The notes under the pieces were generated by a model that was given only the letters and a program-made list of their open reading frames with translations, did no database searches and had not been told where the DNA came from. The position numbers were made by a program, and so were the translations under genes. Positions 43,601 through 58,323 of a DNA stretch of 64,000 nucleotides are shown piece by piece (within the stretch, counting starts at the first letter, position 1; every line of letters starts with the position of its first letter). The stretch is from contig CACAPQ010000006.1 of the NCBI GenBank assembly GCA_902534325.1, positions 1 to 64,000 on the forward strand, written 5' to 3'. Source of the stretch: Paracoccaceae bacterium (GTDB lineage Bacteria > Pseudomonadota > Alphaproteobacteria > Rhodobacterales > Rhodobacteraceae).

Positions 43601-43690
43601 ACCGCATCGGATGTAGGTGAGTACTATTTATTAGTGACAGATGGAAACATTAATAATTCAGCCTATGAGTTAGTTTTGGACATTGTTTAA
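40646..43690 (+). CDS. Large surface lipoprotein with cadherin-like and PPC domains (paralog 1)
   Basis: A 1014-residue protein. A TTG start with AGG at proper spacing, or the ATG two codons later, gives an N-terminus ending in the lipobox TLSAC, so it is probably a lipoprotein. Domains: a carboxypeptidase-regulatory-like beta domain with a calcium-type DLNGDKVLDDNE loop (about 40-110); a long alpha-helical coiled region (120-310); a cadherin-like repeat (about 325-435); then a large region of unknown fold. A C-terminal bacterial pre-peptidase (PPC) beta-domain (about 915-1014) has NGEDWFKFDLTASG and GEYYLLVTDG. Function unknown; adhesion or matrix role is inferred. The first 150 residues are almost identical to the next paralog. 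Confidence 0.8.
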   Translation: MKMIAEKSKGKANFIHISPLALVTLSACKFGQNNSDPASSSVTGHIIKGPLNNALVFLDLNGDKVLDDNEQFIRTDATGGFTINTTATNYVIVALTDDSTVDASSGAVLSGVTLTAPKGAEVVTPTTTLMQEGGLTAEEVAEVLQLPDGVDPLTFNPFETVDAAKALEVEKVSQQIMTAVSSFASAAEGAGAEASDAFKTALSSVVNVVKDKAAKINDPNAVVGDKKLDFTKASDLALIKNEVTTKATKLTGIDVATINALVNDTTDAIKNVTDKISTVTDLKSDATKNIFSTTQVLRDQVKDAAVAKKAGEVANIAFKSRAEVDTQATNKAPQDINLTGGGTISQSASSLDIGIVSTVDVDQSSGAAFKYTLVGKDAALFTLNESTGVLSLKAKPDYAKKPYYDVTIVSKDTGGKKYAETFKISVLKDNLKDVTSSNNELKSDPSNSTSSSESGSGPKSGEVYETTHPRNPSFLIVDSATSGKFDVIPVKIKSGGSGYEFEASRTPEVAYGVAADELFLSIGRDPTKKADASNSDVSTAVTAAKTAKLIGSISVFREMWDAFTFNSTNNGLTLVDKKDSDIFNVSAPFLNMPPGFSIFEIVSSGSSTNKVAHVTAKTDGNSLTLSNVYTEAAGLQFPFGFPHGILMNNYFAPPKEVNLIEVRLRESYAKGDSYFPDHHWLTLEFLDSSGGIVATSGIILGSQSYKFAEKGRILNHSLSSIKSLSNLSTSQTKEAKDAFFDVFENIVFDDSKGPVFTDFSVKTAKPSLGEKITIEFKATDDTHVGYFNAIFSSVDDPNKKIKIKAQNKANTEKLSDHFDFSLNSNNFYEVSVPLLIDGELKGGNYKLDTFSASDAKTTKNPNINNESNYGPNVISSDNEKFFKDLSNTDLLVTIPVLENNPGLPVINEQESNATLEKANSILPDKLVTGTVFPNGEDWFKFDLTASGTIVAQMDMGSRSADLKLYGPDKKEIISKEVVKSGMIHHTASDVGEYYLLVTDGNINNSAYELVLDIV
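41008..41122 (+). repeat. 115-bp exact direct repeat (copy 1)
   Basis: This stretch, from GGTTGTTACTCCC to CCCTTTCGAA, is identical to 44300-44414 in the next gene. It lies within about 460 bp of closely similar sequence (roughly 40760-41220 versus 44060-44515). Identity at synonymous sites implies recent duplication or gene conversion between the two lipoprotein genes. Confidence 0.85.
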
Positions 43691-43804
43691 GTATAAAATT
43701 CAAGCATAATTTTTTAAATTAAATAAAGCTTTTCCTAAACAAATTCTATCCCTGCCGTTATCATCAGTAAGACATATCCAATATAGTCTTAACTTCGCAA
43801 ATTG

Positions 43805-43836
43805 GGGGCAGAACTTACAGGTTCTGTCCCTTTTTT
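43805..43836 (+). terminator. Intrinsic terminator after lipoprotein paralog 1
   Basis: GGGGCAGAAC and GTTCTGTCCC form a 10-bp stem (one G-U pair) with a TTACAG loop, followed by six T. A textbook rho-independent terminator, 115 bases after the stop codon; it separates the two paralogous genes into different transcription units. Confidence 0.9.
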
Positions 43837-43943
43837 AAAGCTATTAAAATGGAACTCGAAAATTCTTATGAAAATTTGACAGAAAGTTCATCAGTATATA
43901 AAATTGTTGGCAAATAGTTAAAATCTCGAATGGGGGTTCGATT

Positions 43944-46565
43944 ATGTCTATTAACTTTTCAAACCGTTCAAAATTGACGGCAATATCACCACTTGCTTTA
44001 GTCACATTGTCTGCATGTCAAAACTTTGGAAGAAACGAGGGTGGTGGTCCCAGCTCACCAGTTACTGGTCATATTATTAAAGGTCCACTCAGCAACGCAT
44101 TAGTATTTTTAGATCTCGACGGTGATAAGGTTTTAGATGATAACGAGCAATTTATAAGAACCGACGCTACTGGTGGGTTTATAATAAATACTACGGCTAC
44201 AGATTATGAGATTGTTGCACTTACCGATGACAGCACAGTGGATGCCTCTTCTGGGGCCGTACTTTCTGGTGTAACTTTGAGTGCACCAAAAGGTGCTGCG
44301 GTTGTTACTCCCACAACCACCTTGATGCAAGAAGGCGGGCTGACAGCAGAAGAGGTCGCGGAAGTTCTGCAATTACCAGATGGTGTAGATCCTTTAACAT
44401 TTAACCCTTTCGAAGCTGGTGTTGATGCAGCTAAGGCCCTTGAAGTTGAAAAAGTTAGTCAGCAAATCATGACGGCTGTAAGCTCTTTTGCTTCGGCTGC
44501 AGAAGGGGCTGGTGCATCTAAGGCAGGTGCATTTACAGCTGCGTTAACATCTGTCGTTGATGTGGTTAAAGTTAAAGCCGCTGGGGCTCAAAAGATTGAC
44601 TTTACCGAGACTAGTGATCTTGACTTAATAAAGGCTAAAGTTGCGGATGAGGCACAAAAGGTTGCTACGGCTGAGGGATCTTCCGGGTTTGATAAAACAG
44701 CATTGGATAACCTAGTAAACGCTACGACTACATCTATTAAAAATGTTAATGATAAAATAAAAACCGTAACAGATTTAACTTCAGACGCATCCAAGAACGT
44801 TTTTTCAACAATGCAGGTTCTGGCAGAGCAAGTTAAAACCGCTGCTGTAGCTGAAAAGGCCAGCAAAGGAAGTGGTACAGCTTCAATTGAGTTTACTAAT
44901 CCCACAAAAGTCAACGACTCTGCATCAAATGCAGCACCGAAGGATTTGGCTCTCTCTAATAAAGCTATCATGGAGGGTTCAAAATCTTTGGTTATTGGTT
45001 CATTGAGTACAACTGACAGCAATCAATCCTCTGGCCACACATATGAAATAGCTGAAGCCAGAGGTACTGATTACAGTTTGTTTTCAATTAATAGCAAGGG
45101 AGAATTAGTTTTAAATAAAACTCCTGATTACAGTGAACGAAGCTTTTACAAACTATTTGTTACAACAACAGACTCAGGCGGAAAAAAGTTTTCGAAAGAA
45201 ATAATAGTCAATGTGACACCTGACCCACATGAAAATTTTCTAGTGAAGTTTAAGGTTAAATATGTCGAAGAAGGAGATGTTGGCCAAGAATATAATACAA
45301 CCTTAAGTCAATCAAAGGCATCTTATGATACATTTCTTGACCGAATGTTCGACAATATGGATGCTATTGACACAGCAATAACGAAAGTTTTTCCAGACTA
45401 TGAAGGAAGCAATAGTGGATCTTCTTCATCGCATTCGGAATCGATTGGCTCGGGAAGCAGTAGTGAAGGATCTCTAAATTATGGACAAATATTTGGTGCG
45501 TTGGCATCTAGTGCCCGGCCAACAATCGCAGTGTCTGGAGAAACATTTTCAGTAACTTATCCAGTAGCCAATGGTGACGATTGGAAAATGACAATAAAAG
45601 GTAAGGGATATGCGGCTGACTCCAGTAATGCCTATGGTGGTAAAAGTGCAACTAATCAAACTATCGATTATTTTGACCCAGAGACATGGACCGTTGCCGA
45701 TGGATTTGAGTCAATTGAGCTCTTCAAAGGTTCAACGAAAGCTTTTTCAGTGACAGTTACTAATACAAGCATATTGATTAAAGGTGAAGCCGGGTTTCAT
45801 TCGGGTTTTAAAAATGGAGATGTTGGTGGCGTATCTGTACAAGGTGACTTTTCAAAGGCTAATATGGATAACTTTTTTGATATTCTTGAACAATTAAGTG
45901 TAGATTCCTCATCTTCCTCATCTTCCTCATCTTCCTCATCTTCCTCATCTTCCTCATCTTCATCATCTTCATCATCCAGTGGAGATCCATTTGGCAGCTC
46001 CCATAGTCATAGTAGTTCAAGTGGTAGTAGCAGTTCTTCTCATAGCTCTAGTTCATCCTCAGGACCAAACTATACTATTGATAAGGTTCTCGTTTACGGT
46101 AAAGATGGTTCATCAGATGGACTTACTGACGCTGCAGTTGCTCAAGCTGAAATGGCTACGGGTTCATTATCCTTGAAACTGGGTGATTATACCATGTCGC
46201 TTGTTTCGCAGCAATTACCTGAATACATCACCGGTGGTGATATTTTTGACTTTGCTACTGTTGATCTTCTTGATGTAGAGGAAATCATTAAGGATGGTGT
46301 TGATGGCTTGTTTACACTCAATCACGCTACCCATGGTGACATCGTGATAATTGAGTCAGATATGTCGTCTGCTGCTGGAAAATCTATAGTAATAGGGAGT
46401 GGAGACACCTTTGGTTCCTATCAGGGTCAAAGATTTGTTTCTGATTCAAACGATGTAGTGGCCGCCTATTTTGATTTTGGCGACGTGGCTGTCACCGATG
46501 CCCAATTTGCTACTTACTGGGATAGCATTGACGGAATTACGGATATGTTTAGTGAAATAGTTTAA
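43944..46565 (+). CDS. Large surface lipoprotein with cadherin-like domain and polyserine tract (paralog 2)
   Basis: An 873-residue paralog of the preceding protein. It has the same lipobox (TLSAC), the same regulatory-like beta domain with DLDGDKVLDDNE, helical region and a cadherin-like repeat (about 330-425). It then diverges: an acidic domain about 430-640, a polyserine stretch of roughly 26 residues near 653-679, a second Ser/His-rich linker (SSHSHSSSSGSSS type), and a different C-terminal domain without PPC. The polyserine is encoded by a 9-bp minisatellite. Likely anchored in the outer membrane and exposed. Function unknown; the Ser-rich spacer suggests a flexible stalk. Confidence 0.8.
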   Translation: MSINFSNRSKLTAISPLALVTLSACQNFGRNEGGGPSSPVTGHIIKGPLSNALVFLDLDGDKVLDDNEQFIRTDATGGFIINTTATDYEIVALTDDSTVDASSGAVLSGVTLSAPKGAAVVTPTTTLMQEGGLTAEEVAEVLQLPDGVDPLTFNPFEAGVDAAKALEVEKVSQQIMTAVSSFASAAEGAGASKAGAFTAALTSVVDVVKVKAAGAQKIDFTETSDLDLIKAKVADEAQKVATAEGSSGFDKTALDNLVNATTTSIKNVNDKIKTVTDLTSDASKNVFSTMQVLAEQVKTAAVAEKASKGSGTASIEFTNPTKVNDSASNAAPKDLALSNKAIMEGSKSLVIGSLSTTDSNQSSGHTYEIAEARGTDYSLFSINSKGELVLNKTPDYSERSFYKLFVTTTDSGGKKFSKEIIVNVTPDPHENFLVKFKVKYVEEGDVGQEYNTTLSQSKASYDTFLDRMFDNMDAIDTAITKVFPDYEGSNSGSSSSHSESIGSGSSSEGSLNYGQIFGALASSARPTIAVSGETFSVTYPVANGDDWKMTIKGKGYAADSSNAYGGKSATNQTIDYFDPETWTVADGFESIELFKGSTKAFSVTVTNTSILIKGEAGFHSGFKNGDVGGVSVQGDFSKANMDNFFDILEQLSVDSSSSSSSSSSSSSSSSSSSSSSSSSGDPFGSSHSHSSSSGSSSSSHSSSSSSGPNYTIDKVLVYGKDGSSDGLTDAAVAQAEMATGSLSLKLGDYTMSLVSQQLPEYITGGDIFDFATVDLLDVEEIIKDGVDGLFTLNHATHGDIVIIESDMSSAAGKSIVIGSGDTFGSYQGQRFVSDSNDVVAAYFDFGDVAVTDAQFATYWDSIDGITDMFSEIV
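44300..44414 (+). repeat. 115-bp exact direct repeat (copy 2)
   Basis: Identical to 41008-41122, inside the 5' part of paralog 2. See that entry for extent. The downstream three-base difference (an extra codon in GAAGCTGGTGTTGAT versus GAAACTGTTGAT) marks its right boundary. Confidence 0.85.
45903..45979 (+). repeat. 9-bp minisatellite encoding polyserine
   Basis: Five perfect tandem copies of TCATCTTCC, then two TCATCTTCA variants and a partial copy, inside paralog 2. Each unit encodes Ser-Ser-Ser, so gain or loss of units changes linker length without a frameshift. Further serine codons of other types follow to about 46060. Confidence 0.92.
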
Positions 46566-46579
46566 CTATTTAACATTAT

Positions 46580-48082
46580 TTATTGACCGTATCGTGATCT
46601 GAGAAGGCTCTTTTGAACCTTTCCCATACTATTTCTAGGTAGCTCTTTCACTATGGCATACTGGCTCGGGTGTTTGTAACGCGCAACGTGGATTGTAAAA
46701 TTTTCTTTGATTTTATCTATATCAAGTGCCGTATCGTTTTCTGAAACAATTACAGCTATAGGTGTTTCTCCAAAGTCAGGATGTGGGATACCAATAACCG
46801 CACTTTCCAAAACACCATCTTGATCATCAATGAAAATTTCTAGTTCTTTTGGGTAAATATTATATCCACCAGAAATTATGAGATCTTTTTCTCGGCCAAC
46901 TATATGAATATATCCATCTTCATCAATTTTTCCTAAATCACCGGTAATGAAGAAACCATTTTCCCGTAATTCTGCTTTTGTTTTCTCAGGTAATTTCCAA
47001 TATCCTGCGAAGACATTGGGACCCCTAACTTCAATTTGTCCAATTTCATTCCTTGATAGAGCATTCCCTGTTTTCGGGTCTGTAATCTTTAGTTCGACAC
47101 CGGGTAAGGGTAGGCCAACGGTACCCGCTCGCCTTTCACCTTTATAAGGATTTGAGGTATTCATATTCGTCTCAGTCATGCCATATCGCTCAAGTATTCT
47201 GTGCCCGGTTATTTTTTCGAATTGGATGTGTGTTTCTGAAAGTAGAGGCGCAGAGCCAGATACAAATAATCGCATGTGTTTGACTAGTTCTTTGTTAAAT
47301 CGTTTGTCTCTAAGCAAGCGCGTATAAAAGGTTGGCACGCCCATCATCGTAGAAGATTTTGGTAATTTTTTTATAATATCATCTAGATCGAATTTTGGTA
47401 AAAATATCAAACTTCCACCAGCTGAAAGTATAACATTAGTGGCAACAAATAATCCGTGCGTATGAAATAAAGGAAGCGCATGCAGCAATACGTCTTTTGG
47501 GCTAAACTGCCACTCTGACATCAGTGCACTGCCATTTGATAAGAGATTAGCTTGGGTGAGCATCGCTCCCTTCGATTTTCCAGTTGTTCCAGAAGTATAA
47601 AGCAATGCGGCAAGGTCTTTTTCTGAACGCGCTACCGTTTTAAAATTTTCAGATGCAGAGTTTGCTTTATCTATAATTGAGCCTGTGGAATTACCGTTTA
47701 ATGTTTCAAATAGTACGTCAAGTTTTTGGGTTATAATTTTTAAATCTTCTTTATTTTTTTCATCGCAAATAATTAACCGGGCTTCGCTGTTTTCAATGAA
47801 ATACGTGAGTTCGTCGACTGTGTAGGACGGGTTAAGAGGTAAAAATACTAATCCCGCTTGCGCGCATGCTGCATAGATGTTGAGCATTTCAGGAGATTTT
47901 TCAACTTGAATTGCCACACAATCCCCAGGTTCTAAACCTATTTCAACCAATGCATTCGCAATCCTTCCGCTTGCTGCCAAAAATTGCCGGTAAGTAATAG
48001 TCTTACCATCGAGTAGATACAAAAATGGGTCGTCGTTGTCCGAATGCACTCCAAATAGATTGTCATATAGAGGATTAGTCAT
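46580..48082 (-). CDS. MatB-like malonyl-CoA/methylmalonyl-CoA synthetase
   Basis: A 500-residue AMP-forming acyl-CoA synthetase. The P-loop is LLYTSGTTGKSKGAML. MatB-type markers include LPLFHTHGLFVATNVIL, GVPTFYTRLLRDKRF and MRLFVSGSAPL. The adenylate motif is RYGMTETNMNTSNPYKGERR and the C-terminal lysine lies in RNSMGKVQKSLL. MatB activates malonate (or methylmalonate) with CoA. It is divergent from a TctC-TctB-TctA transporter operon across 258 bases, which fits uptake and activation of a small dicarboxylate. Its 3' end converges with the lipoprotein gene (14-base gap). Confidence 0.85.
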   Translation of the reverse strand: MTNPLYDNLFGVHSDNDDPFLYLLDGKTITYRQFLAASGRIANALVEIGLEPGDCVAIQVEKSPEMLNIYAACAQAGLVFLPLNPSYTVDELTYFIENSEARLIICDEKNKEDLKIITQKLDVLFETLNGNSTGSIIDKANSASENFKTVARSEKDLAALLYTSGTTGKSKGAMLTQANLLSNGSALMSEWQFSPKDVLLHALPLFHTHGLFVATNVILSAGGSLIFLPKFDLDDIIKKLPKSSTMMGVPTFYTRLLRDKRFNKELVKHMRLFVSGSAPLLSETHIQFEKITGHRILERYGMTETNMNTSNPYKGERRAGTVGLPLPGVELKITDPKTGNALSRNEIGQIEVRGPNVFAGYWKLPEKTKAELRENGFFITGDLGKIDEDGYIHIVGREKDLIISGGYNIYPKELEIFIDDQDGVLESAVIGIPHPDFGETPIAVIVSENDTALDIDKIKENFTIHVARYKHPSQYAIVKELPRNSMGKVQKSLLRSRYGQ

Positions 48083-48263
48083 TTTGCTCTCGGTTCATTT
48101 CACATCTTTGCATTACAGGATTTGCTTGTGAGGTCTATCAAGTTTTTACTATTTTTCATTTAACTTACCAAAATCTGGCACCAAAGAATTATTAAAATTG
48201 TCCAGAATTACAATGATTTTTGTTGACTTTTATTAATTCAAACGAACGAATGCAATTATACAT

Positions 48264-48291
48264 GTGCGATGTCAATTTTGTGTCATCGCAC
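48264..48291 (+). promoter_or_regulatory. Dyad operator-like inverted repeat upstream of tctC
   Basis: GTGCGATG (48264-48271) and CATCGCAC (48284-48291) are perfect inverted arms with a 12-base spacer; a further outer T/A pair and two inner pairs extend the symmetry. A TATACA hexamer at 48257-48262 could be a -10 element, so the dyad would overlap the transcription start, as expected of a repressor operator. It lies in the matB/tctC divergent region. The regulator is not in the window. Confidence 0.55.
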
Positions 48292-48340
48292 AAAGTGTAT
48301 TATTAGAATCGAGTTACTAACTTTACGTTGGGAGGACGCA

Positions 48341-49369
48341 ATGAAGTTAAACTTAAAAAAACAATTTTCAACATTAGCTCTTGTTACTAGTTTTGCAGCG
48401 ACTGCAAGCATGTCACTGGCAGGCGAGTGCCGAGTAGCCGAAGCTAGTATGGATAAGCCAGGTGGTTTTCCAGACCGTGCTTTGACGATGATCGTTCCGT
48501 ACGGTCCAGGTGGAGGATCAGGACAGGTTGCAGCCGCAATGGCTGAAGCAGTAACAGAACTTACCGGCGTAAGTATAAACAGAGATCACAAGCCGGGTGG
48601 TTCTGGAACAGTAGGTATGACAGCTTATATGGCTGCCCCTGCTGACGGTTACAATGTTTTAGAGCATATTGATGATGCGTCTTCAGCCCATGCGCTCGAC
48701 TCTAGTCGACCTAATCCTGCTGAGGATTTAATACCGCTCGTAGTATCACAGGTGACCTTTTCGCAAATTTATATCAGGTCAAATGAAACTCGTTACACTG
48801 ATTGGCCAAGTTTTGTAGCTTGGGTGCAAGCTCAAGATGGTAAAGCAACAATCGCTAATGTATCTAAAGAGGGATCTATGGAACGCGTTATTATGAAGTT
48901 CATTACTGAGGCTTCTGATATGCAAATTCAGCAGATTTCTTTTGATAAAGGTGCTCCACGATACGGTGCTTTGTTAGGTGGTCAAGTTGATGCCTTATTT
49001 GAGCAGCCTGGTGATGTTAGAAAATTTCTAGACGCTGGAAACTTTAAACCGATCCTTACGGTTTTTAACGAACGACCTGGCGTTTTTAGCGATGTTCCAA
49101 CTCATAGGGAAATGGGTATGGATTTCGAGCCATTACTTCGTTTTAGAGGTTTTTATGTTCATAAGGATGCACCTTCTGACCGTGTGGATTGGTTAAAGTG
49201 GGCTTTCCAAAGAGCATATTGTGAAGATAGTTATCAAGCATTCAATGACAGTAAGTTTATGAATGTGATTGATAGTTATCGGGATACAGCTGGTGCGATT
49301 GATATGATTAACGCAGCAATTGTTCAGTACCGTGATGTGTATAAAGAAATGGGTTTAGACGTTAAGTAA
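48341..49369 (+). CDS. tctC: TctC-family periplasmic solute-binding receptor
   Basis: A 342-residue receptor of the tripartite tricarboxylate transporter (TTT). It starts at the ATG preceded by GGGAGGA; an upstream in-frame ATG at 48269 lies in the operator region. A signal peptide (LALVTSFAATASMSLA) leads to the mature Bug-type fold. Ligand-binding landmarks are MIVPYGPGGGSGQVAAAM, NRDHKPGGSGTVGMTAYM and LLGGQVDALFEQPGDV. TTT receptors bind carboxylates and, in some bacteria, sulfonated acids. The first gene of a likely five- to six-gene operon. Confidence 0.9.
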   Translation: MKLNLKKQFSTLALVTSFAATASMSLAGECRVAEASMDKPGGFPDRALTMIVPYGPGGGSGQVAAAMAEAVTELTGVSINRDHKPGGSGTVGMTAYMAAPADGYNVLEHIDDASSAHALDSSRPNPAEDLIPLVVSQVTFSQIYIRSNETRYTDWPSFVAWVQAQDGKATIANVSKEGSMERVIMKFITEASDMQIQQISFDKGAPRYGALLGGQVDALFEQPGDVRKFLDAGNFKPILTVFNERPGVFSDVPTHREMGMDFEPLLRFRGFYVHKDAPSDRVDWLKWAFQRAYCEDSYQAFNDSKFMNVIDSYRDTAGAIDMINAAIVQYRDVYKEMGLDVK

Positions 49370-49390
49370 GCGATATTATCGTTATAATTC

Positions 49391-49420
49391 AACCGCTCGC
49401 GGCACATGTCGCGAGCGGTT
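49391..49420 (+). terminator. Intercistronic hairpin between tctC and tctB
   Basis: AACCGCTCGCG and CGCGAGCGGTT form an 11-bp GC-rich stem with an eight-base loop, 21 bases after tctC and 21 bases before tctB. No long T-run follows. Such hairpins after solute-binding protein genes often stabilise the upstream mRNA or cause partial termination, raising receptor over membrane subunits. Confidence 0.6.
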
Positions 49421-49441
49421 TAAACAATATGAAGAGAAAAA

Positions 49442-49999
49442 ATGGGCAAATTGGGTAGAACAGATATTTTTGAAGCTGTTTTTTGGCTTTTAATTGCAAT
49501 TATATTTTTTGCATTCAGTTTTAATTTTAACCAGCCGATAGAAATTTATAAATTTGGGGCAACAGGTTGGCCAAGAGTAATATTGTTTTTGATGGCTCTG
49601 GTCGCTTTAGGTAATTTTTACCATGCTTTTTCTAAAGGCTCTAAGGCTCAAGAGGGTCGGGTAGGTGCAAAGGAAAATGATGATCCAATTGAATATACCT
49701 CCACAGGTCAATATTTTAAAACTGGTATGGTTTTAATATTACCTCTGCTGTATGCAGTATCTTTAAAGCCAGTTGGTTTTTATTCAGGAACTCCAATTTT
49801 CATAGCGTTAATAATGATCGCCTGGGGTGAAAGAAGAGTTCGCTTTATATTAACAAATACAATTTTAATTTATGCAATTTTAATTGGTTTGTTTATGCTT
49901 GTCCTGAATGCTCCATTGCCTCAGGGAAATATGTCTCCTTTTTATGATATCAGTGCTTTTATGTTAAAAACGAAAACGCAATTGGATCAAATGTTTTAA
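49442..49999 (+). CDS. tctB: TctB-family small membrane subunit
   Basis: A 185-residue protein with four predicted membrane segments, for example AVFWLLIAIIFFAFSF near the N-terminus and FILTNTILIYAILIGLFML near the end, and the TctB feature GATGWPRVILFLMALVALGN. It is the small membrane subunit of the TTT carrier; its sequence is poorly conserved, so position between tctC and tctA is the main support. Confidence 0.85.
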   Translation: MGKLGRTDIFEAVFWLLIAIIFFAFSFNFNQPIEIYKFGATGWPRVILFLMALVALGNFYHAFSKGSKAQEGRVGAKENDDPIEYTSTGQYFKTGMVLILPLLYAVSLKPVGFYSGTPIFIALIMIAWGERRVRFILTNTILIYAILIGLFMLVLNAPLPQGNMSPFYDISAFMLKTKTQLDQMF

Positions 50000-50008
50000 T
50001 GGTTTGCT

Positions 50009-51499
50009 ATGATTGAAAATTTTTTAGCTGGTACCGCTACACTTTTTGGGGATCCTTTCACCATAGGTATTTTTATTTTTGGTGTTCTGGGGGGAATGCT
50101 CTTTGGAGCGATACCTGGTGTAAGTATGCTTACTCTTGCTGCGATACTTCTTCCTTTCACTGCGGATCTTTCTCCTGCTCAAGGTGTTATGTTATTTGCT
50201 GTCATTTACTGCACGGGAACTTATGGAGGCGCTATAACGGCAATCTTATTTAATATTCCTGGCGCTCCGGAAAATGCGCCTACTGCGTTTGATGGTTATC
50301 CTATGACCCAAAAGGGCATGGCTGGTAAAGCTGTGGGGGCGGCAGTTCTATGTTCTGCAATTGGAGGTGTGGCTTCAGCATTAGTAATGATGAGCGCAAC
50401 AGAACCACTTGCTCAATGGGCTATCATGAATATTGGCCCACCAGAAATTTTTGCATTAGTATTTTTTGGATTGGCCGTAGCGTCGTCTGTTGGAGGAAGA
50501 ACAATATGGAAGGGATGGCTTTCAGTTCTTCTTGGTTTATTAATTGCCACTATTGGTCAAGATCCAGTAGGTGGAATTAATCGTTTCAATTTTGGCTACT
50601 CTGATTTAGCGGCTGGGATCGCTTTTGTGCCGGCAATTCTTGGTTTTTTTGCTGTATCAGAAATTTTTATCCAGGCAGAAAAAAATGTAAGTGGTAAATA
50701 TTCGGCTCCAAAGTTCAATGTAGATTTTCCATCATTTTTTGAATTATGGGCGCATAAAATAGCAGTTGTCCGGTCCATTTTTGTGGGTTTTTTCTGTGGC
50801 ATTTTACCTGGTATTGGGGCCACATTGGCTGCTTTCATGGGATATGGAGAAGCAGTTAGATGGTCAAAAAATAAATCCGAGTTCGGTACAGGAAAACTTG
50901 AGGGGGTTATTTCCTCTGAAACAGCCAACAACGCTGCAACTGGTGCGGCAATGATACCATTGTTAGCATTAGGTCTTCCTGGTGGTGCATTGACAGCAAT
51001 GATGGTGGCAGTTTTTCAAATGCATGATTTAGAACCTGGACCTTTGGTATTTTATAACTCTCCTGAACTTATTTGGATCGTATTTGCAGCCATGTTCTAT
51101 GCAAATCTCTCAATTTTATTTGTTGGGTTAATAGAGACAAAAACAATTTTATACTTATTGAAAATCCCTTTTCAGTTTCTTGCTCCTATGATTCTTATGC
51201 TTGCGAGTATAGGCGCTTATATAAGCCGTGGCTTAGTACTGGATGTAATTGTAATGTTCATCGCTGGAATAATAGGGTTTTTACTCCGTCGCTCAGGCTA
51301 CTCAATTCCAGGTATTGTCCTGGGCTTAATTCTGGGAAAAATAGGGGAGCAAAATTTTGCCCAGGGTATGCAAATGGTGCATTACGATTTGGGAACTTAT
51401 TTTTCCCGTCCAATTTGTACAATATTGATTGTAGCAGGGGTTCTAACTCTTTTAAAAAGTTTGCATTCTGCGTTCTTCCAAAAGCCTAAAGTTACATAA
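50009..51499 (+). CDS. tctA: TctA-family large membrane subunit
   Basis: A 496-residue membrane protein with about 12 spans. The conserved TctA signatures are present: GAIPGVSMLTLAAILLPF, YGGAITAILFNIPGAPENAP with GYPMTQKGMAGKAV, and the second-half GILPGIGATLAAFMGYGEA and LGLPGGALTAMM. It forms the sodium- or proton-coupled transport pore with TctB. Ten bases follow tctB. Together with tctC this makes a complete transporter. Confidence 0.93.
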   Translation: MIENFLAGTATLFGDPFTIGIFIFGVLGGMLFGAIPGVSMLTLAAILLPFTADLSPAQGVMLFAVIYCTGTYGGAITAILFNIPGAPENAPTAFDGYPMTQKGMAGKAVGAAVLCSAIGGVASALVMMSATEPLAQWAIMNIGPPEIFALVFFGLAVASSVGGRTIWKGWLSVLLGLLIATIGQDPVGGINRFNFGYSDLAAGIAFVPAILGFFAVSEIFIQAEKNVSGKYSAPKFNVDFPSFFELWAHKIAVVRSIFVGFFCGILPGIGATLAAFMGYGEAVRWSKNKSEFGTGKLEGVISSETANNAATGAAMIPLLALGLPGGALTAMMVAVFQMHDLEPGPLVFYNSPELIWIVFAAMFYANLSILFVGLIETKTILYLLKIPFQFLAPMILMLASIGAYISRGLVLDVIVMFIAGIIGFLLRRSGYSIPGIVLGLILGKIGEQNFAQGMQMVHYDLGTYFSRPICTILIVAGVLTLLKSLHSAFFQKPKVT

Positions 51500-51514
51500 A
51501 ATAGGATAGTTTTT

Positions 51515-52924
51515 ATGACTAACTCTGCACAGATTGATGAAATAGATCTTCTGGTTGATAGAGCACGAATTGCTCAGGAAAAATTCGAAAAAAATGGTTC
51601 ACAGAAGCTTTTTGATTTAGCTTGTCAAGCGGTTGGTTGGGCCCTTATGAAACCTGAACAAAACCAAAGACTGGCGGAGATTGCTGTTAGGGAAACAGGT
51701 CTTGGAAATGTTCCAGATAAAATTAAAAAAAACCATAATAAAACTTTGGGGCTGTTAAGAGATATAAAAGACATAAAATCTTTTGGTCATGTTTCTGAAG
51801 ATAAGGAGATGGGTCTCAGCACATACTTAAGGCCGAAGGGTGTGGTTGCTGCTATTGTTCCATCTACTAATCCATTAGCTACTCCCGTAAATAATATTAT
51901 AAATGCTTTAAAATGTGGAAACTCGATTATAGTTGCTCCATCACCAAAGGGCGCGCAGCCGCTTAAAGAGCTGTTGTTATTAATCCATAAAAATCTTTCG
52001 ATGATTGGCTTAGATCAGGATTTGGTCCAAATGGTGCCGGTGCCTCCAACTAAAGGAAAAACAAATAGGCTTATGCAACTCGCTGACATGCTGGTCGTTA
52101 CGGGTTCACAAAATAATGTTAAAGCTGGATATTCATCAGGTACCCCGGCTCTAGGTGTCGGTCAAGGTAATGTTGTCACAATAATCGATGAAACAGCTGA
52201 TACGCAGGCAGCTGCTGCCAAGATAGCAATTTCAAAAACGTTCGATAATGCCACCTCATGTTCGTCAGAAAATTCCGTTATTGTAATTGAAGAGGTTTAT
52301 GAGGAAACGGTTCAATTTCTTAGCGATGAAGGGGGATTGCTTTTAAATAAAGATGAGGCCGACCGGCTCATCGATATCCATTGGAAAAGTGGAAAAATGA
52401 CCACCGATCTTTTAGCTCAAGATATAGACGTAATAATTGATAGGGTTGGTTTAAGACAAAGAGCAGGCGAAAATACAAAGTTTCTTATTTTGCCTACCAA
52501 TAAAGCTGGTCCAAGTGAAGTAGTTTGTGGAGAAAAAATGTCACGTTTCTTAACCTTATACAAAGTTAAGAAATTTTCTGAAGCCATTGAATTAGCTATA
52601 AAAATACAAGAATATCAAGGGGCAGGGCACTCTTTGGGTATACATACACAAAATGAAGACAGGGCACATGAAATCGCCATGTCGGCCAAAACTTGCAGGG
52701 TTATTGTAAATCAAGCCCACTGTTTTGCTACTGGTGGTTTTTTTAATAATGGCCTTCCTTTTTCCCTGTCTATGGGATGTGGAAGCTGGGGCGGTAATTC
52801 AATAGATGGAAATCTTAATTGGGAGCATTTTGTCAATAAAGTAAGAGTAGTCCAAACAATAGAGGAAAATAAGCCAGATTTAGAGGAGATTTTTGGAAAT
52901 TACTGGGGGGAAACTTCTCAGTGA
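51515..52924 (+). CDS. CoA-acylating aldehyde dehydrogenase (SauS/EutE-like)
   Basis: A 469-residue ALDH-superfamily enzyme of the acylating type. The cofactor-binding region is GVVAAIVPSTNPLATPVNNI and the catalytic cysteine is in DNATSCSSENSVI. That motif matches AdhE/EutE-like CoA-dependent dehydrogenases rather than ordinary acid-forming ones. It would interconvert an acyl-CoA and an aldehyde with NAD(P)H. In sulfoacetate degradation SauS does this on sulfoacetyl-CoA. The following acyl-CoA ligase overlaps its stop codon (GTGA), so the two likely act in sequence. The actual substrate is inferred, not shown. Confidence 0.78.
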   Translation: MTNSAQIDEIDLLVDRARIAQEKFEKNGSQKLFDLACQAVGWALMKPEQNQRLAEIAVRETGLGNVPDKIKKNHNKTLGLLRDIKDIKSFGHVSEDKEMGLSTYLRPKGVVAAIVPSTNPLATPVNNIINALKCGNSIIVAPSPKGAQPLKELLLLIHKNLSMIGLDQDLVQMVPVPPTKGKTNRLMQLADMLVVTGSQNNVKAGYSSGTPALGVGQGNVVTIIDETADTQAAAAKIAISKTFDNATSCSSENSVIVIEEVYEETVQFLSDEGGLLLNKDEADRLIDIHWKSGKMTTDLLAQDIDVIIDRVGLRQRAGENTKFLILPTNKAGPSEVVCGEKMSRFLTLYKVKKFSEAIELAIKIQEYQGAGHSLGIHTQNEDRAHEIAMSAKTCRVIVNQAHCFATGGFFNNGLPFSLSMGCGSWGGNSIDGNLNWEHFVNKVRVVQTIEENKPDLEEIFGNYWGETSQ

Positions 52925-54471
52925 GCGAAATCAAGTTTCCAGAAACAATTGGCGATCAGATTCTATATAATTCTTGTAAATTTCCTGAAGCGGTTTGGCT
53001 TATTTCACCAGAAACTAATCAAACAATAAGTTTTCGAGAAGTTAATGAAACTATTTCCGCAATTGGACAAAAATTAATTGAGACGGGTATTGAGCTCGGC
53101 TCAAGTATAGCTATAGCTGCGCCCAATAGCCCTACGTCTTGTTTAGTGTTCATGGCTATCGTTTCTTCCGGATTTGTGGCTGTTCCGTTGAATTTAGTCG
53201 CTGGAAGTACAATTTTAGCTTATACAATTGAACATTCTGAGGCCAAATTTATTTTTGTAGCAGACGATTGCAGAGATCTGATCGCTTCAGCGGTAGCTCA
53301 ACAAAACAATAGCGTGAAATTAGTAAAGCTTGATCCAGTTAGGGGGCCAGATTTGGAGACACTCCCTTTGGAAGCAAATGATTTGAATTTAGAAGATATC
53401 AAGTCTAAACCCAATGATATTGCTCTACTCATGTATACCTCAGGAACAACAGGAAAACCTAAGGGCGTAATGTTGAGCCATGCAAATTTACTGGCTGCAG
53501 GTCGATTTATTTCTACCGGTCATGAAATAGATGGAAATGATAGTGGGCTGTGTGTACTGCCAATTTATCATATAAATGGAATGTGTGTTACTGTCATGGG
53601 CACAATTGTATCGGCGAGCACCTTAGTTATTCCCCACAAATTTTCCGTAAATTCATTTTGGAAGATTATAGCTAAGTTTAAGTGCTCTTGGTTCTCGGCA
53701 GTGCCTACTCAATTTTCCTATATTTTAAATTATGAGGAAACTCCGGAGGACATATCATCCCTTCGTTTTGCTCGCTCTGCTTCTGCCCCATTATCACCTG
53801 ATATTCATAAAAAATTTGAAAAGCGGTTTAATATCCCAATCATTGAAACTATGGGATTAACAGAAACGGGCTCTCAGATAACGACAAACCCTATGCCGCC
53901 GGGAGAACGTAAAATTGGATCTCCAGGAAAGGCTTATGGTAACCAGATTATGATTGGTGATGATCAATATAAAGCATTACCCGCAGGTGAAACGGGAGAA
54001 ATATTGGTCAAGGGCGATAATGTTATGCAGGGGTATTTTAAACAACCTGAGGAAACGCACAAAACAATTTTAGGAAATGGTTGGCTGCGTACAGGTGATT
54101 TAGGGTATTTGGATAATGATGGCTATGTATTTGTGTCGGGCAGAATAAAGGAATTAATCATAAAGGGTGGTGAAAATATTGCTCCGAGAGAAATTGATGA
54201 AGCGCTGCTGACCCATCCCGGTATATTAGAAGCGGCTGCCTTTGCGGTCCCTTGCAAAGATTACGGAGAAAGAGTTGAAGCCTGCGTTTGTCTTAAACAA
54301 AAAGTATCTGTTGAGTTAGCTGAATTGAAAAGCCATTGCGAAAATCAAATTGGAAAATTTAAGTCTCCTGATAACATTCATATCGTTGCTGACCTGCCTA
54401 AGGGACCGTCAGGAAAGGTGCAGCGACTAAAATTATTTGAATTAATTTATGACAATCAAAATCAACAGTAA
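52921..54471 (+). CDS. AMP-forming acyl-CoA ligase
   Basis: A 516-residue acyl-CoA synthetase. It starts at a GTG overlapping the preceding stop codon by four bases. The P-loop is LLMYTSGTTGKPKGVMLS, and other core motifs are MGLTETGSQITTNP, YLDNDGYVFVSGRIKELI and the C-terminal lysine in GPSGKVQRLKL. It should activate the carboxylate imported by the TctCBA system so that the dehydrogenase can reduce it to an aldehyde. By analogy SauT activates sulfoacetate. Substrate specificity cannot be read from sequence here. Confidence 0.85.
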   Translation: MSEIKFPETIGDQILYNSCKFPEAVWLISPETNQTISFREVNETISAIGQKLIETGIELGSSIAIAAPNSPTSCLVFMAIVSSGFVAVPLNLVAGSTILAYTIEHSEAKFIFVADDCRDLIASAVAQQNNSVKLVKLDPVRGPDLETLPLEANDLNLEDIKSKPNDIALLMYTSGTTGKPKGVMLSHANLLAAGRFISTGHEIDGNDSGLCVLPIYHINGMCVTVMGTIVSASTLVIPHKFSVNSFWKIIAKFKCSWFSAVPTQFSYILNYEETPEDISSLRFARSASAPLSPDIHKKFEKRFNIPIIETMGLTETGSQITTNPMPPGERKIGSPGKAYGNQIMIGDDQYKALPAGETGEILVKGDNVMQGYFKQPEETHKTILGNGWLRTGDLGYLDNDGYVFVSGRIKELIIKGGENIAPREIDEALLTHPGILEAAAFAVPCKDYGERVEACVCLKQKVSVELAELKSHCENQIGKFKSPDNIHIVADLPKGPSGKVQRLKLFELIYDNQNQQ

Positions 54472-54506
54472 ACTGTCGTCCTTAATGCTAGAGTATATTA
54501 AGTGAT

Positions 54507-55277
54507 ATGAACGAAGATATTTGGAATATTTTGTTTCCTTCAAGCGATATAAACATACTTGTTTTTATGCTTTTTGTCTTCTTTTTATCTGGAATTGTTA
54601 AAGGTTTTCTGGGAATTGGGCTGCCCGCCGCTGCTATGGCATTGCTAACTTTGGTAATACCTCCCGCACAAGCGATTTCACTACTTGTTATCCCAATTTT
54701 ATTTACAAACCTGACGCAATTTTCTCGTGCTAAATATCGTATTGAGTCAATTAAGACTTATTGGTTATTTGCCATTGCAATTATTTTTAGTATTTTTTTA
54801 ACATCACTTTTCCTTTCGAAATACCCAACAGGACTGCTTACAATCTCAATTGGCTTAGCAATGGTAATTGTATCCCTTAATGGCCTGATAGGTATAAAAA
54901 TGAAAATCAGCGAAAGGAGATCTTGGCAGGTTGGTTTTGGGGTTTTGTCTGGGGTTCTCGGCGGCTTAAGTTCAATTTGGTCACCAACGGTCGCAATTTA
55001 TCTAATTGCGAGGAGAGTAGATAAAGACCGTTTTATTTCAGCAACTGGATTTCTTTTTTTAGCAGGTGCGGTACCGCTAATTTTTGGGTTAATTTTTGGT
55101 GGCGTGTTGACTAAAGAGGTGGCAATGCAGTCTATATTTGGTTTAGTATTTGTTCTCGCTGGTTTTAGAGTTGGCGAGATACTTCGAAATAAAACGTCGC
55201 AAAGCTGGTTCGAGAAAGCTGTTTTAATTGCTTTTCTTTTTATGGGAATACGTCTAATTGGTGTGGGTCTATTTTAA
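54507..55277 (+). CDS. TSUP (TauE/SafE) family membrane transporter
   Basis: A 256-residue membrane protein with seven or eight spans. The TauE/SafE signature repeat is seen at the start (SGIVKGFLGIGLPAAAMALLT) and in the second half (GFGVLSGVLGGLSSIWSPTV). TSUP proteins export sulfite, sulfoacetate or other anions; TauE-type members are often encoded with taurine or sulfonate degradation genes. This location beside an acyl-CoA ligase and acylating dehydrogenase is consistent with sulfite export. It overlaps the convergent oxidase gene by four bases. Confidence 0.85.
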   Translation: MNEDIWNILFPSSDINILVFMLFVFFLSGIVKGFLGIGLPAAAMALLTLVIPPAQAISLLVIPILFTNLTQFSRAKYRIESIKTYWLFAIAIIFSIFLTSLFLSKYPTGLLTISIGLAMVIVSLNGLIGIKMKISERRSWQVGFGVLSGVLGGLSSIWSPTVAIYLIARRVDKDRFISATGFLFLAGAVPLIFGLIFGGVLTKEVAMQSIFGLVFVLAGFRVGEILRNKTSQSWFEKAVLIAFLFMGIRLIGVGLF

Positions 55278-58201
55278 TTATTCATCAGCTGTCTATCTAA
55301 TAGCCTGGCGACGTGGATAGGTTCCCTCTTGGTACCATCTATAATCTGACTTCTGCATGATGTACCATCGGCGATTAGAATAGTTTCTTCTTCTGTTTGT
55401 CTTATCTTTGGTAGAAGATCTTGCTCAGCCATTTTTATTGAAAAATCTATAGTTTCTTTTGAGTATCCAAAAGCACCTGCCATTCCACAACAACTTGTTT
55501 CGACTTTCTCGACATCAAGGTCTTCAATCAAATGCAGTACGTTCTCAACAGATTTTAAAACATTAAAAGCTTTTTGATGGCAGTGACCATGCAATAAGGC
55601 TTTTGCTTTTAAGGGTCTAAGCTTAAGGAGTTTTTTGTCTTTAGCTAGCAGTTCTTCAAAAGTAATGACATTCTCTGAAACCAGCTTTGCGTCATTCGTT
55701 TTTAATAGGGATGGAATTTCATCTTTTAATGCAAATAGGCAGGAAGGCTCCAAACCAACTATGGGTAGGCCTCTTTGAACGTATGGCAGATATGTTTTGA
55801 CTAATCGTTCAGCAGCTTCCTTTGCTTTCGAAATATTTCCAACGGATAGATGGGTTTTACCACAGCATAAAGCTTTTTGACTTTTCTCTTCTGGTTTTGG
55901 ATAGAAAGGTTGATAGCCTGCATTGCGTAAAACTCTCACCGCGCTCCGTAAATTTTCTGGTTCAAAATATCTATTAAATGTATCAACAAATAATATAACT
56001 GGGTATTGCTCAACGGGATCTGCAGAAACTTCGTGGTCGCGATACCAATCTGTTCTCCATACTGGAAGATTTCTTTGCGCAGAAAATCCGGTGAGCCGTT
56101 CACTGATTTTGGCAAGAATTTTTGAGGAATTGCGCAAGTTTAGAATTTTATTGAACGAAGAAGCTAAAGGGGCATAGTCGGGAAGATAAGCGATTAGTCT
56201 TTCTTGAATTGATAAAGAATTATATTTAGCGTTTAGTGCCATTACTTCTAATTTCATCGCTGACATATCTACACTTGTGGGGCATTCACGTTTACACGCT
56301 TTGCAAGAAACGCATAATTTCATGGTTTCCAACATCTCTGTTGATGTCATCGCATTTGGACCTAATTGACCAGACATTGCCAGCCTTAGGCTATTAGCCC
56401 TTCCGCGCGTACTATCCTTTTCTTCACCGGTAATTCTAAAAGAGGGGCACATAACACCTCCCTCTAATTTCCTACAGGCTCCATTATTATTGCACATTTC
56501 AACGGCGCCTTGAAAGCCGCTGGCACTACCTGGCCAGCTTGACCAATCCAACTCCGTATGGAAGCTATTGACAGAGTAACCCGGTGAAAATCTAAAAAGA
56601 TGCCTGTCATCCATTTTTGGGGCATCAACGATTTTTCCTGGATTAAAAATTCCATGTGGGTCCATTAAAGATTTAATTTCTCGAAATGCGTTAGTTAGCT
56701 TTTTTCCAAACATAACGGGATTAAATTCTGAGCGAGAAATTCCATCTCCGTGTTCGCCCGAGTGCGAGCCATTAAATTTTTTTACAAGCTTGAATGCTTC
56801 CGTGGCTATCGCACGCATTTTTATGATATCTCTGGAATCCTTCATGTTTAATACTGGTCTTACATGTAAGCAGCCTACAGACGCATGCGCGTACCAGGTA
56901 CCTGAAGTTTGATACTTATCAAAAATATCAGTCAAACCTTGCGTGTATTCTGCGAGGTTATGGAGTGGTACTGCACAGTCCTCAACAAACGAAACAGGTT
57001 TAGCCTCTGATTTCATTGACATCATAATATTTAAGCCGGATTTTCGCATTTCAGAAATCCGATTTTGTGATTTTTCATCCTCAATAACTACAATACTGTT
57101 AATTGTACTATCTGATGTGTCTTTAAGTAAGACCTCTAAGTCTCTAACTTTTTTAAGATTTCCACTCCAAATATCCTCTGCAAACTCAACGACCAAAAGG
57201 GCCTTAGGATCATTAATAACAAAATCATCAATAGTTTTAGAAAAAATGGGTATTGATCGCCCAAGCGAGATCATTGTGTTATCAATTAATTCAACAGCTA
57301 TTGGGTTTAATTTAACAATGTGCTGGGCTGAATCCATTGCCTCATAAAATGTGGAGAAATGACAAAGAGCCATAATCTTTGGTGGAGGTAGTGGAGACAA
57401 TTTCAGTTCAATACTTGTTGAGTAAGCTAGGGTCCCTTCAGAACCGACAATCAAATGCGATAAATTTATATCGTTTTCATTGCCGATACTACCTGGCCTA
57501 GAAGCAAGCGTATCAGGTAATAGGGCATCTAAATTATATCCTCCAACTCTTCTAAGAACTTTTGGGTACCTAGTCTCGATTTCTTTTTGGTTTCTCTCAG
57601 CAATTTTAATTAATTTTGGAAATATTTTTTCTAATCCGCTCAGACCCTTTTTTGCCAGTCCGAAGTGTGCCTTTGAACCATCGGATAAAATTGTATTTAT
57701 TGAAAATACATTGTCTCTCATTATGCCGTATCGAATGGACCGACCACCAGCTGAATTATTACCAGCCATTCCACCAATGGTAGCCCTGCTGGATGTTGAA
57801 ACATCAACTGGAAACCAAAGGCCGAATGGCTTCAATTGTCGGTTCAGTTCATCGAGAATAACGCCAGGTTCGACCACACACTTCAGGTTTTCTTCATCAA
57901 TCTCAATTATTTTGTTTAAATACTTGCTGTTATCTAAAACAATAGCTTGATTTACGGTCTGTCCATTCTGTGAGGTTCCACCACCTCTCGGCAATATTGG
58001 GATACTGTATTCCTGAGAAAATTGAATGGTTTTTTGAATATCCTCTACTGTTTTTGGTAAAACGACAGCTTCAGGCATCATCTGGTAAATAGATGCATCT
58101 GTTGAGTATCGTCCGCGGTCAAATTGCCCGTCTAGTAGATCGCCAGATAGAGAACTTTTTAAAACTGAAATCTCCGATTTCATTTTTACCTTCAAACTCA
58201 T
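55274..58201 (-). CDS. FAD-linked 2-hydroxyacid dehydrogenase with 4Fe-4S and CCG domains (YdiJ-like)
   Basis: A 975-residue fusion. The N-terminal FAD_binding_4/PCMH domain has ILPRGGGTSQNGQTV and GGMAGNNSAGGRSIRYG. A FAD-oxidase C-domain follows (SVGCLHVRPVLNM and HSGEHGDGISRSEF). A 4Fe-4S module has CNNNGACRK...CPSF and LCVSCKACKRECPT. Two cysteine-rich CCG domains end the protein (CCGKTHLSVG and SCCGMAGAFG). E. coli YdiJ and relatives oxidise D-2-hydroxyglutarate or D-lactate-type 2-hydroxyacids and pass electrons to quinone. It is convergent with the TSUP gene and divergent from the aminotransferase. A hydroxyacid role in the same catabolic region is plausible but unproven. Confidence 0.9.
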   Translation of the reverse strand: MSLKVKMKSEISVLKSSLSGDLLDGQFDRGRYSTDASIYQMMPEAVVLPKTVEDIQKTIQFSQEYSIPILPRGGGTSQNGQTVNQAIVLDNSKYLNKIIEIDEENLKCVVEPGVILDELNRQLKPFGLWFPVDVSTSSRATIGGMAGNNSAGGRSIRYGIMRDNVFSINTILSDGSKAHFGLAKKGLSGLEKIFPKLIKIAERNQKEIETRYPKVLRRVGGYNLDALLPDTLASRPGSIGNENDINLSHLIVGSEGTLAYSTSIELKLSPLPPPKIMALCHFSTFYEAMDSAQHIVKLNPIAVELIDNTMISLGRSIPIFSKTIDDFVINDPKALLVVEFAEDIWSGNLKKVRDLEVLLKDTSDSTINSIVVIEDEKSQNRISEMRKSGLNIMMSMKSEAKPVSFVEDCAVPLHNLAEYTQGLTDIFDKYQTSGTWYAHASVGCLHVRPVLNMKDSRDIIKMRAIATEAFKLVKKFNGSHSGEHGDGISRSEFNPVMFGKKLTNAFREIKSLMDPHGIFNPGKIVDAPKMDDRHLFRFSPGYSVNSFHTELDWSSWPGSASGFQGAVEMCNNNGACRKLEGGVMCPSFRITGEEKDSTRGRANSLRLAMSGQLGPNAMTSTEMLETMKLCVSCKACKRECPTSVDMSAMKLEVMALNAKYNSLSIQERLIAYLPDYAPLASSFNKILNLRNSSKILAKISERLTGFSAQRNLPVWRTDWYRDHEVSADPVEQYPVILFVDTFNRYFEPENLRSAVRVLRNAGYQPFYPKPEEKSQKALCCGKTHLSVGNISKAKEAAERLVKTYLPYVQRGLPIVGLEPSCLFALKDEIPSLLKTNDAKLVSENVITFEELLAKDKKLLKLRPLKAKALLHGHCHQKAFNVLKSVENVLHLIEDLDVEKVETSCCGMAGAFGYSKETIDFSIKMAEQDLLPKIRQTEEETILIADGTSCRSQIIDGTKREPIHVARLLDRQLMNN

Positions 58202-58323
58202 TTATTTAATTAATATAAATTAGCATAACTGGCGGTATTGAAAGTACAACTTTTATCCTAATAATGCGGCGAAAGGGGCCAAGAGGCCCAGGCGCATTCA
58301 ATTTAATAGAATGGTAATTCGAA

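Follow-up and report, generated by a model that had tools for sequence, protein, structure and literature searches.

Which compound is handled by the six-gene operon on the forward strand of a 64,000-nucleotide stretch of DNA from a Paracoccaceae bacterium (GenBank assembly GCA_902534325.1, contig CACAPQ010000006.1, positions 1 to 64,000; hereafter, the window)? The genes encode the three parts of a tripartite tricarboxylate transporter (TTT), a CoA-acylating dehydrogenase, an acyl-CoA ligase and a membrane protein of the TSUP family. We conclude that this operon very probably serves the utilization of sulfoacetate, a small sulfur-containing organic acid that would be imported by the TTT, activated by a SauT-like ligase, reduced by the sulfoacetaldehyde dehydrogenase SauS and then passed to the sulfoacetaldehyde acetyltransferase Xsc. 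A first-pass annotation of the sequence had already proposed import and reduction of sulfoacetate by SauT- and SauS-like enzymes, and this proposal is supported by the match of the dehydrogenase to a SauS equivalog model, by the presence of xsc in the same genome and by the association of SauS with xsc across genomes of the class. The question is of interest because few systems for breaking down sulfoacetate have been studied biochemically.

Identity of the dehydrogenase and the ligase

The dehydrogenase gene (51515..52924, + strand) encodes a protein that passes the NF047625 equivalog model for CoA-acylating sulfoacetaldehyde dehydrogenase, scoring 624.6 bits over residues 10-466 against a cut-off of 600. 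The SauS proteins selected for comparison (seven, from loci L084, L128, L129, L228, L230, L231 and L232; the set did not extend to those of Sulfitobacter, Tateyamaria and Alisedimentitalea) all pass the same model, at 640 to 810.7 bits. The cysteine in the window motif FDNATSCSSEN, which we take to be the catalytic cysteine of acylating aldehyde dehydrogenases, is invariant across all five rows of the alignment. We also built a tree of SauS-like proteins from 169 rows no shorter than 380 residues, drawn from loci L037-L097 and L128-L234 and the window and including some near copies; the method was a quick one with midpoint rooting, and the program issued a warning that long branches meet. In this tree the window protein is sister to that of L128, a locus from another family of the class, f109 (support 99), and both lie within a six-row set that also holds the f109 and f48 rows (99). 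This set is nested within 61 rows accompanied by an AMP-forming ligase (99), which become 62 when Caballeronia joins (99), and the 62 rows fall inside a set of 156 SauS rows (98), apart from relatives linked to a thiamine diphosphate (ThDP) enzyme and from relatives of 41% identity.

The ligase gene (52921..54471, + strand) overlaps sauS by four bases, and its product, a SauT-like AMP-forming acyl-CoA ligase, scores over the cut-offs of both PF00501 and PF13193. The adjacency of sauS and ligase recurs in L128, L129 and L130, where the ligases are 54-56% identical to that of the window. The ligase of Caballeronia (L228), used as a stand-in for SauT of Cupriavidus necator, falls in the same 32-row set as the window ligase in a FastTree phylogeny.

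Composition of the operon

The six genes occupy positions 48341-55277 in the order tctC-tctB-tctA-sauS-ligase-TSUP, with intergenic distances of 72, 9, 15, -4 and 35 bases. The first gene, tctC (48341..49369, +), encodes the periplasmic substrate-binding protein of the TTT (PF03401, 48 bits, cut-off 27). Its open reading frame (ORF) opens at 48269, and inspection favors a start at 48341, where a signal-peptide-like stretch begins and which matches the relative in L128. The solved relatives of this protein in PDB are binding proteins of the Bug/TctC type. It is followed by tctB (49442..49999, +; PF07331, 51 bits, cut-off 29.1), the small membrane subunit, and tctA (50009..51499, +; PF01970, 424.7 bits, cut-off 28.9), the large one, so that all three contiguous TTT genes pass their Pfam cut-offs. 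The last gene (54507..55277, +) encodes a TSUP (TauE/SafE) membrane protein, a probable anion exporter (PF01925, 77.4 bits, cut-off 32.6), for which we found no solved relatives at E 0.1. A scan for promoters and terminators gave no excess over shuffled sequences (22 against a mean of 21.1, and 4 against 6.1), and the G+C content of the window is 36-41%.

The gene order, single strand and short gaps described in the first-pass annotation thus agree with the ORF positions and Pfam matches, and so does the presence of a divergent MatB-like synthetase; together the seven ORFs carry, in order, AMP-binding, TctC, TctB, TctA, Aldedh, AMP-binding and TauE/SafE domains. The operon itself had been drawn as 46580-55277. 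The six forward genes stand, but the synthetase gene, which lies inside those coordinates, is apparently not a member of the operon.

The xsc gene and its neighborhood

The genome (G000), which is 77.8% complete and amounts to 2.09 Mb on 74 contigs, was searched for xsc and for a sulfite oxidase, as the first-pass annotation had suggested, where the absence of xsc was one part of what would refute sulfoacetate. A gene for Xsc is present on contig C14 (33902-35635; 902.8 bits, cut-off 676.4). It is encoded within a run composed of a class-III aminotransferase, a MocR/GntR-type regulator, xsc, pta, a second TSUP protein of the TauE family and three subunits of the dimethyl sulfoxide (DMSO) reductase family. 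The pta gene directly follows xsc (TIGR00651, 346.3 bits, cut-off 311.2), the regulator passes the PdxR model (353.9 bits, cut-off 320), and the three closing genes carry molybdopterin, Fe4S4 and DmsC domains. None of these three subunits passes a SoeABC-specific model and the aminotransferase passes no specific model; we presume from position that the genes of the run correspond to Tpa, TauR and SoeABC. As for the sulfite oxidase, SoeABC-like subunits were found at the end of the xsc run, but their assignment falls short of a specific model match. The TSUP protein of this run and that of the operon share about 25% identity.

The chemistry of the SauT/SauS/Xsc/Pta route is established for these families, and the genes suggest the following scheme. 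TctC would bind sulfoacetate in the periplasm and TctAB would import it, as the gene context indicates. The SauT-like ligase would convert sulfoacetate, ATP and CoA to sulfoacetyl-CoA, and SauS, using NAD(P)H, would reduce this to sulfoacetaldehyde. From sulfoacetaldehyde and phosphate Xsc, whose gene lies on contig C14, would then form acetyl phosphate and sulfite; Pta would convert acetyl phosphate to acetyl-CoA, the SoeABC-like complex would oxidize sulfite, and the TSUP proteins may export surplus sulfite or sulfonate. We infer the substrate, the direction of flux and the TSUP cargo from what was observed, namely the genes, their families, their order and its recurrence, and the co-occurrence with xsc.

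Co-occurrence of SauS and Xsc

In order to determine whether SauS and Xsc occur together we examined 385 genomes of the class, the window genome included (the class sample), and 292 genomes of the order (the order sample). In the class sample, the window SauS is matched at E ≤ 1e-100 in 35 genomes and xsc is found at E ≤ 1e-180 in 47. After the scores had been seen, the 35 were split into 27 genomes whose SauS is close to that of the window (26 scoring at least 400 bits with 43-100% identity, plus G462, whose gene is cut by a contig end and is 55% identical) and eight with a relative of 41-42% identity. Of the close-SauS genomes, 23 of 27 encode Xsc, against 24 among the 358 remaining ones, which include the eight (Fisher p 4e-20, kinship ignored); the match in G377, counted among the 23, is truncated and below the cut-off. 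The four close-SauS genomes lacking xsc are G482 (64% complete), G515 (70%), G557 (86%) and G622 (100%). A set of eight class-sample genomes, each encoding a near relative of the window SauS, includes six with xsc, and xsc is present in all nine genomes of the selected named SauS loci that could be searched (over cut-off in each). In the order sample, where SauS is over cut-off in 51 genomes and xsc is present in 197, xsc occurs in 48 of the 51 and in 149 of the 241 others (p 2e-6, kinship ignored).

None of the eight class-sample genomes with only a 41-42% relative has xsc. These relatives (L142-L145 and four more genomes) come from families f39 and f49 and are probably a different acyl-CoA reductase. 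A second group of acylating dehydrogenases was observed in genomes of the window's own family (L058, L090-L095). It scores 424-473 bits against the SauS model, is 34-36% identical to the SauS references and accounts for seven of the 169 tree rows as one tight clade; its genes directly adjoin that of a ThDP enzyme just 27-28% identical to Xsc.

Several observations weigh against a sulfoacetate operon. The window SauS exceeds its cut-off by only 24.6 bits, and no other match above the cut-off in the order sample scores lower. For the ligase, none of the 25 top-ranked NCBIfam models shown is passed, and the top PDB hits are oxalate-CoA ligases. The xsc gene is on a different contig (C14) from the operon (C6). 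In the order sample xsc is also present in 12 of the 14 genomes with only a distant relative (416-473 bits), and therefore the co-occurrence in that sample is weak evidence. Four SauS genomes that are 99-100% complete (G033, G176, G240 and G622) have no xsc over cut-off, their matches to the Xsc model reaching 389.9 bits at most. Finally, SauS rows seldom lie near xsc when their partner is an AMP-forming ligase. The 169 rows comprise 70 with such a ligase, 69 with SauCD, 23 with neither and seven with the distant ThDP enzyme, and xsc of at least 44% identity lies within 9 kb in two of the 70, compared with 26 of the 69 and none of the 23. These proximity counts are lower bounds because many loci end at short contigs. 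The SauCD group is thus strongly and the AMP-ligase group weakly associated with a nearby xsc, and therefore the argument for the window rests on co-occurrence within genomes.

One of the complete genomes without xsc over cut-off, G622, encodes TctCBA-SauS-SauCD followed by SoeABC-like genes (L140). Its sulfoacetaldehyde must therefore have another fate or meet an unrecognized desulfonating enzyme.

Alternative substrates and direction of flux

The structural relatives of the ligase raise the question of whether the operon handles oxalate, which would be imported by the TTT, activated to oxalyl-CoA, reduced to glyoxylate by the dehydrogenase and converted to glycine by the class-V aminotransferase encoded at 58324-59499. 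An FAD/Fe-S hydroxyacid-oxidase-like gene and this BhcA-like aminotransferase do adjoin the operon, and a class-V aminotransferase is also found near SauS in Sulfitobacter alexandrii. The likeness to oxalate-CoA ligases is not decisive for the substrate, because the SauT-like ligase of L042 likewise has oxalate-CoA ligases as its nearest solved structures. Moreover, both neighboring genes are outside the operon, the oxidase gene being convergent with it and the aminotransferase gene divergent from the oxidase gene; a search next to the operon in L084, L128, L129 and L130 matched neither of them, and the aminotransferase scores below the BhcA cut-off (453.4 against 650). An oxalate route would need no xsc, which the close SauS tracks in the class sample, and the dehydrogenase passes the SauS equivalog. 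We therefore consider oxalate highly unlikely. The conversion of malonate to malonate semialdehyde, with ligases that make malonyl-CoA and a dehydrogenase that reduces it, was the main alternative named in the first-pass annotation and drew on the divergent upstream gene, whose product passes the malonyl-CoA synthase model. It loses this main support because no MatB match lies beside the operon in L084, L128, L129 or L130; in L129 and L130 there is another AMP-binding-like gene about 4 kb from the operon, 24% identical to the operon ligase. The operon carries a ligase of its own that is 32% identical to MatB, and the dehydrogenase is of the SauS type, which makes malonate extremely improbable. 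A search for malonyl-CoA decarboxylase (PF05292) found no match in the 78% complete genome, and its controls gave no match either.

The same enzymes could in principle run in reverse, oxidizing sulfoacetaldehyde (for example, from taurine) to sulfoacetate that the TSUP protein would export, in the manner of SqwD/SqwKL of anaerobes. PMC11489063 and PMC12890257 describe such an oxidative route, in which sulfoacetaldehyde is converted to sulfoacetate with a gain of ATP by an ADP-forming ligase, and PMC11489063 labels a TauE protein a probable exporter of 3-sulfopropionate. The class-III aminotransferase beside xsc could yield sulfoacetaldehyde from taurine. However, the described ligase is ADP-forming and ATP-yielding, whereas that of the window belongs to an AMP-forming family, which would favor activation. 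A binding-protein importer shares the operon, and Xsc and Pta appear to offer sulfoacetaldehyde a more useful fate, so that flux toward sulfoacetate seems very improbable. A related sulfonate or another small acid, such as 3-sulfopropionate, might also be the main substrate. Such enzymes can serve another sulfonate, since HpfX (an acylating dehydrogenase) and HpfYZ (a CoA ligase) of Enterococcus gilvus act on 3-sulfopropionate according to PMC11489063. The co-occurrence in the class sample is nevertheless with xsc, and we regard the chance that such a compound is the main substrate as exceedingly small. Xsc acts on a C2 aldehyde.

Related operons and transporter lineages

In order to identify related operons we examined the neighborhoods of SauS genes in other genomes. 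L128 shows a six-gene order identical to that of the window, with identities of 83% (TctC), 55% (TctB), 86% (TctA), 66% (SauS), 55% (ligase) and 59% (TSUP). The arrangement is therefore not a product of chance, because the same order recurs in another family. Two further loci of f109, L129 and L130, have the order sauS-ligase-tctC-tctB-tctA-TSUP, L131 has tctC-tctB-tctA-sauS-ligase with no TSUP match, and L221 keeps the window order but has SauCD in place of the ligase. L084 (genome G169, from the window's own family) is 83% (TctC), 52% (TctB), 87% (TctA), 55% (SauS) and 46% (ligase) identical to the window and carries a convergent TSUP gene whose product is 58% identical. Across L084, L128, L129 and L130, TctA is 87, 86, 88 and 89% identical to that of the window, respectively, and the TSUP protein encoded beside the operon 56-59%.

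A tree of TctA was built from 55 rows encoded no more than 3.5 kb from SauS, with 14 of the 52 own-family loci retained and L130 beyond the distance limit. In it the window groups with L084, L128 and L129 in a single clade (support 100/100). SauS and the ligase of L084, on the other hand, group with the usual own-family rows in their trees. L084 is therefore a hybrid operon, because it joins a transporter of the window clade to another SauS-ligase lineage, a pairing that would be expected if both lineages serve one substrate. The TctA rows beside SauS split into several groups separated by long branches, and several kinds of importer, both TTT lineages and the major facilitator superfamily (MFS), seem to serve one SauS enzyme family.

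Operons in which a TTT accompanies sauS and a ligase are common in the window's family, with SauS over its cut-off in 51 of 292 sampled genomes. Among the 52 loci fetched around an over-cut-off SauS (L038-L089), 45 encode tctA-tctB-tctC-sauS-ligase with a single transporter type, and 44 of these 45 units have a divergent LacI-type regulator; the other seven loci differ. A contig scan for more relatives confirmed at least 578, and the following concerns the best 80 of them, among which C. necator does not appear. TctA proteins 61-62% identical to that of the window occur in Pararhizobium haloflavum (L183) and an Albidovulum metagenome-assembled genome (MAG; L195), in runs of TctC-B-A-SauS-SauC-SauD-Xsc with Soe-like genes.

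Several related loci are carried by plasmids. Plasmid p1 of Paracoccus sp. TOH encodes SauS (55% identical to the window), an AMP ligase and an MFS protein, and its xsc and sulfite oxidase genes lie no more than 8 kb away. SauS, SucCD-like subunits and xsc occur together on plasmid pDK2 of Rhodococcus sp. DK180, and on Azospirillum argentinense plasmid p3 molybdo-enzyme subunits come after Pta-like, TTT, SauS and SucCD-like genes. On plasmid pNK83 of Caballeronia sp. NK8 we found IclR, SauS, an AMP ligase and an MFS protein, which is the sauRSTU layout. SauS, ligase and TTT genes are encoded together on plasmids of Sulfitobacter alexandrii, Tateyamaria omphalii and Alisedimentitalea scapharcae. 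The resemblance of the usual own-family unit to the named plasmids L233 and L234 suggests that the window's family is one of the Rhodobacterales; a marine origin is conjectural.

Taken further, these observations allow the tentative proposal, which we hold at somewhat less than even chance, that the six-gene unit represents a distinct type of sulfoacetate island that has a transporter lineage to itself and a TSUP protein devoted to it, that it moves between families and swaps its SauS-ligase half (as in L084), and that TTT lineages and MFS proteins were recruited separately to one SauS family. If so, this separate recruitment would make sulfoacetate a widely traded sulfonate. The pairing of different transporter lineages with one enzyme family provides testable transporter candidates for an organic sulfur compound.

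Comparison with known systems

The sauRSTU cluster of C. necator H16 resembles the window operon in having a SauS-type acylating dehydrogenase and an AMP-forming ligase, SauT reportedly being AMP-forming. It differs in its MFS transporter SauU and its regulator SauR; the window has a TTT, no adjacent regulator and a TSUP gene at the end, and an adjacent SauU and SauR of the C. necator type were not found, the flanking genes being those of MatB and a YdiJ-like oxidase. The usual own-family unit (L042; L234 of A. scapharcae) shares with the window a TTT, SauS and an AMP-forming ligase. It has another transporter lineage (TctA 33-37% identical), the order tctA-tctB-tctC-sauS-ligase, a divergent LacI-type regulator and no TSUP match.

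As described in PMC12625764 and PMC12890257, the sauXYZ and sauSCD genes of Bilophila wadsworthia resemble the window operon in combining a TTT importer with SauS, but the ligase there is the ADP-forming SauCD, not a member of the AMP-forming family, and TauF turns sulfoacetaldehyde into isethionate for IseG, so that it is not passed to Xsc. A literature search pairing sulfoacetate with TctABC found no paper in the collection searched. The closest description is that of OTU1 and OTU4, two dominant symbionts of Arctic sponges, whose sauST clusters with a TTT are termed 'hybrid' in PMC12625764 (2025); xsc and pta are reported there in both MAGs, and sauST and sauSCD in four and three, respectively, of 99 non-sponge bins. 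By this description the sponge clusters, like the window, have SauS and SauT with a TTT instead of SauU, and the excerpted text mentions no TSUP gene, which the window has. The window operon thus joins an already described pathway type, because such TTT-sauST hybrid clusters have been reported there; it is a well-supported member of that type, and the known chemistry is unchanged.

Neighboring genes

The gene divergent from the operon (46580-48082, - strand) encodes MatB, a malonyl-CoA synthetase that scores 769.8 bits against the NCBIfam malonyl-CoA synthase model (cut-off 558). Convergent with the operon is the gene of a YdiJ-like FAD/Fe-S oxidase (55274-58201; 536.5 bits, far under the cut-off of 1350), and divergent from the latter is that of the BhcA-like class-V aminotransferase (58324-59499). 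All three were considered as parts of the operon and rejected, with no match beside the operon in L084, L128, L129 or L130. The oxidase and aminotransferase (55274-59499) are perhaps a glycolate/glyoxylate pair. On the other side of MatB, positions 40646-46565 encode two consecutive large proteins of 1014 and 873 amino acids with weak cadherin matches below cut-off, the second of which has long serine runs.

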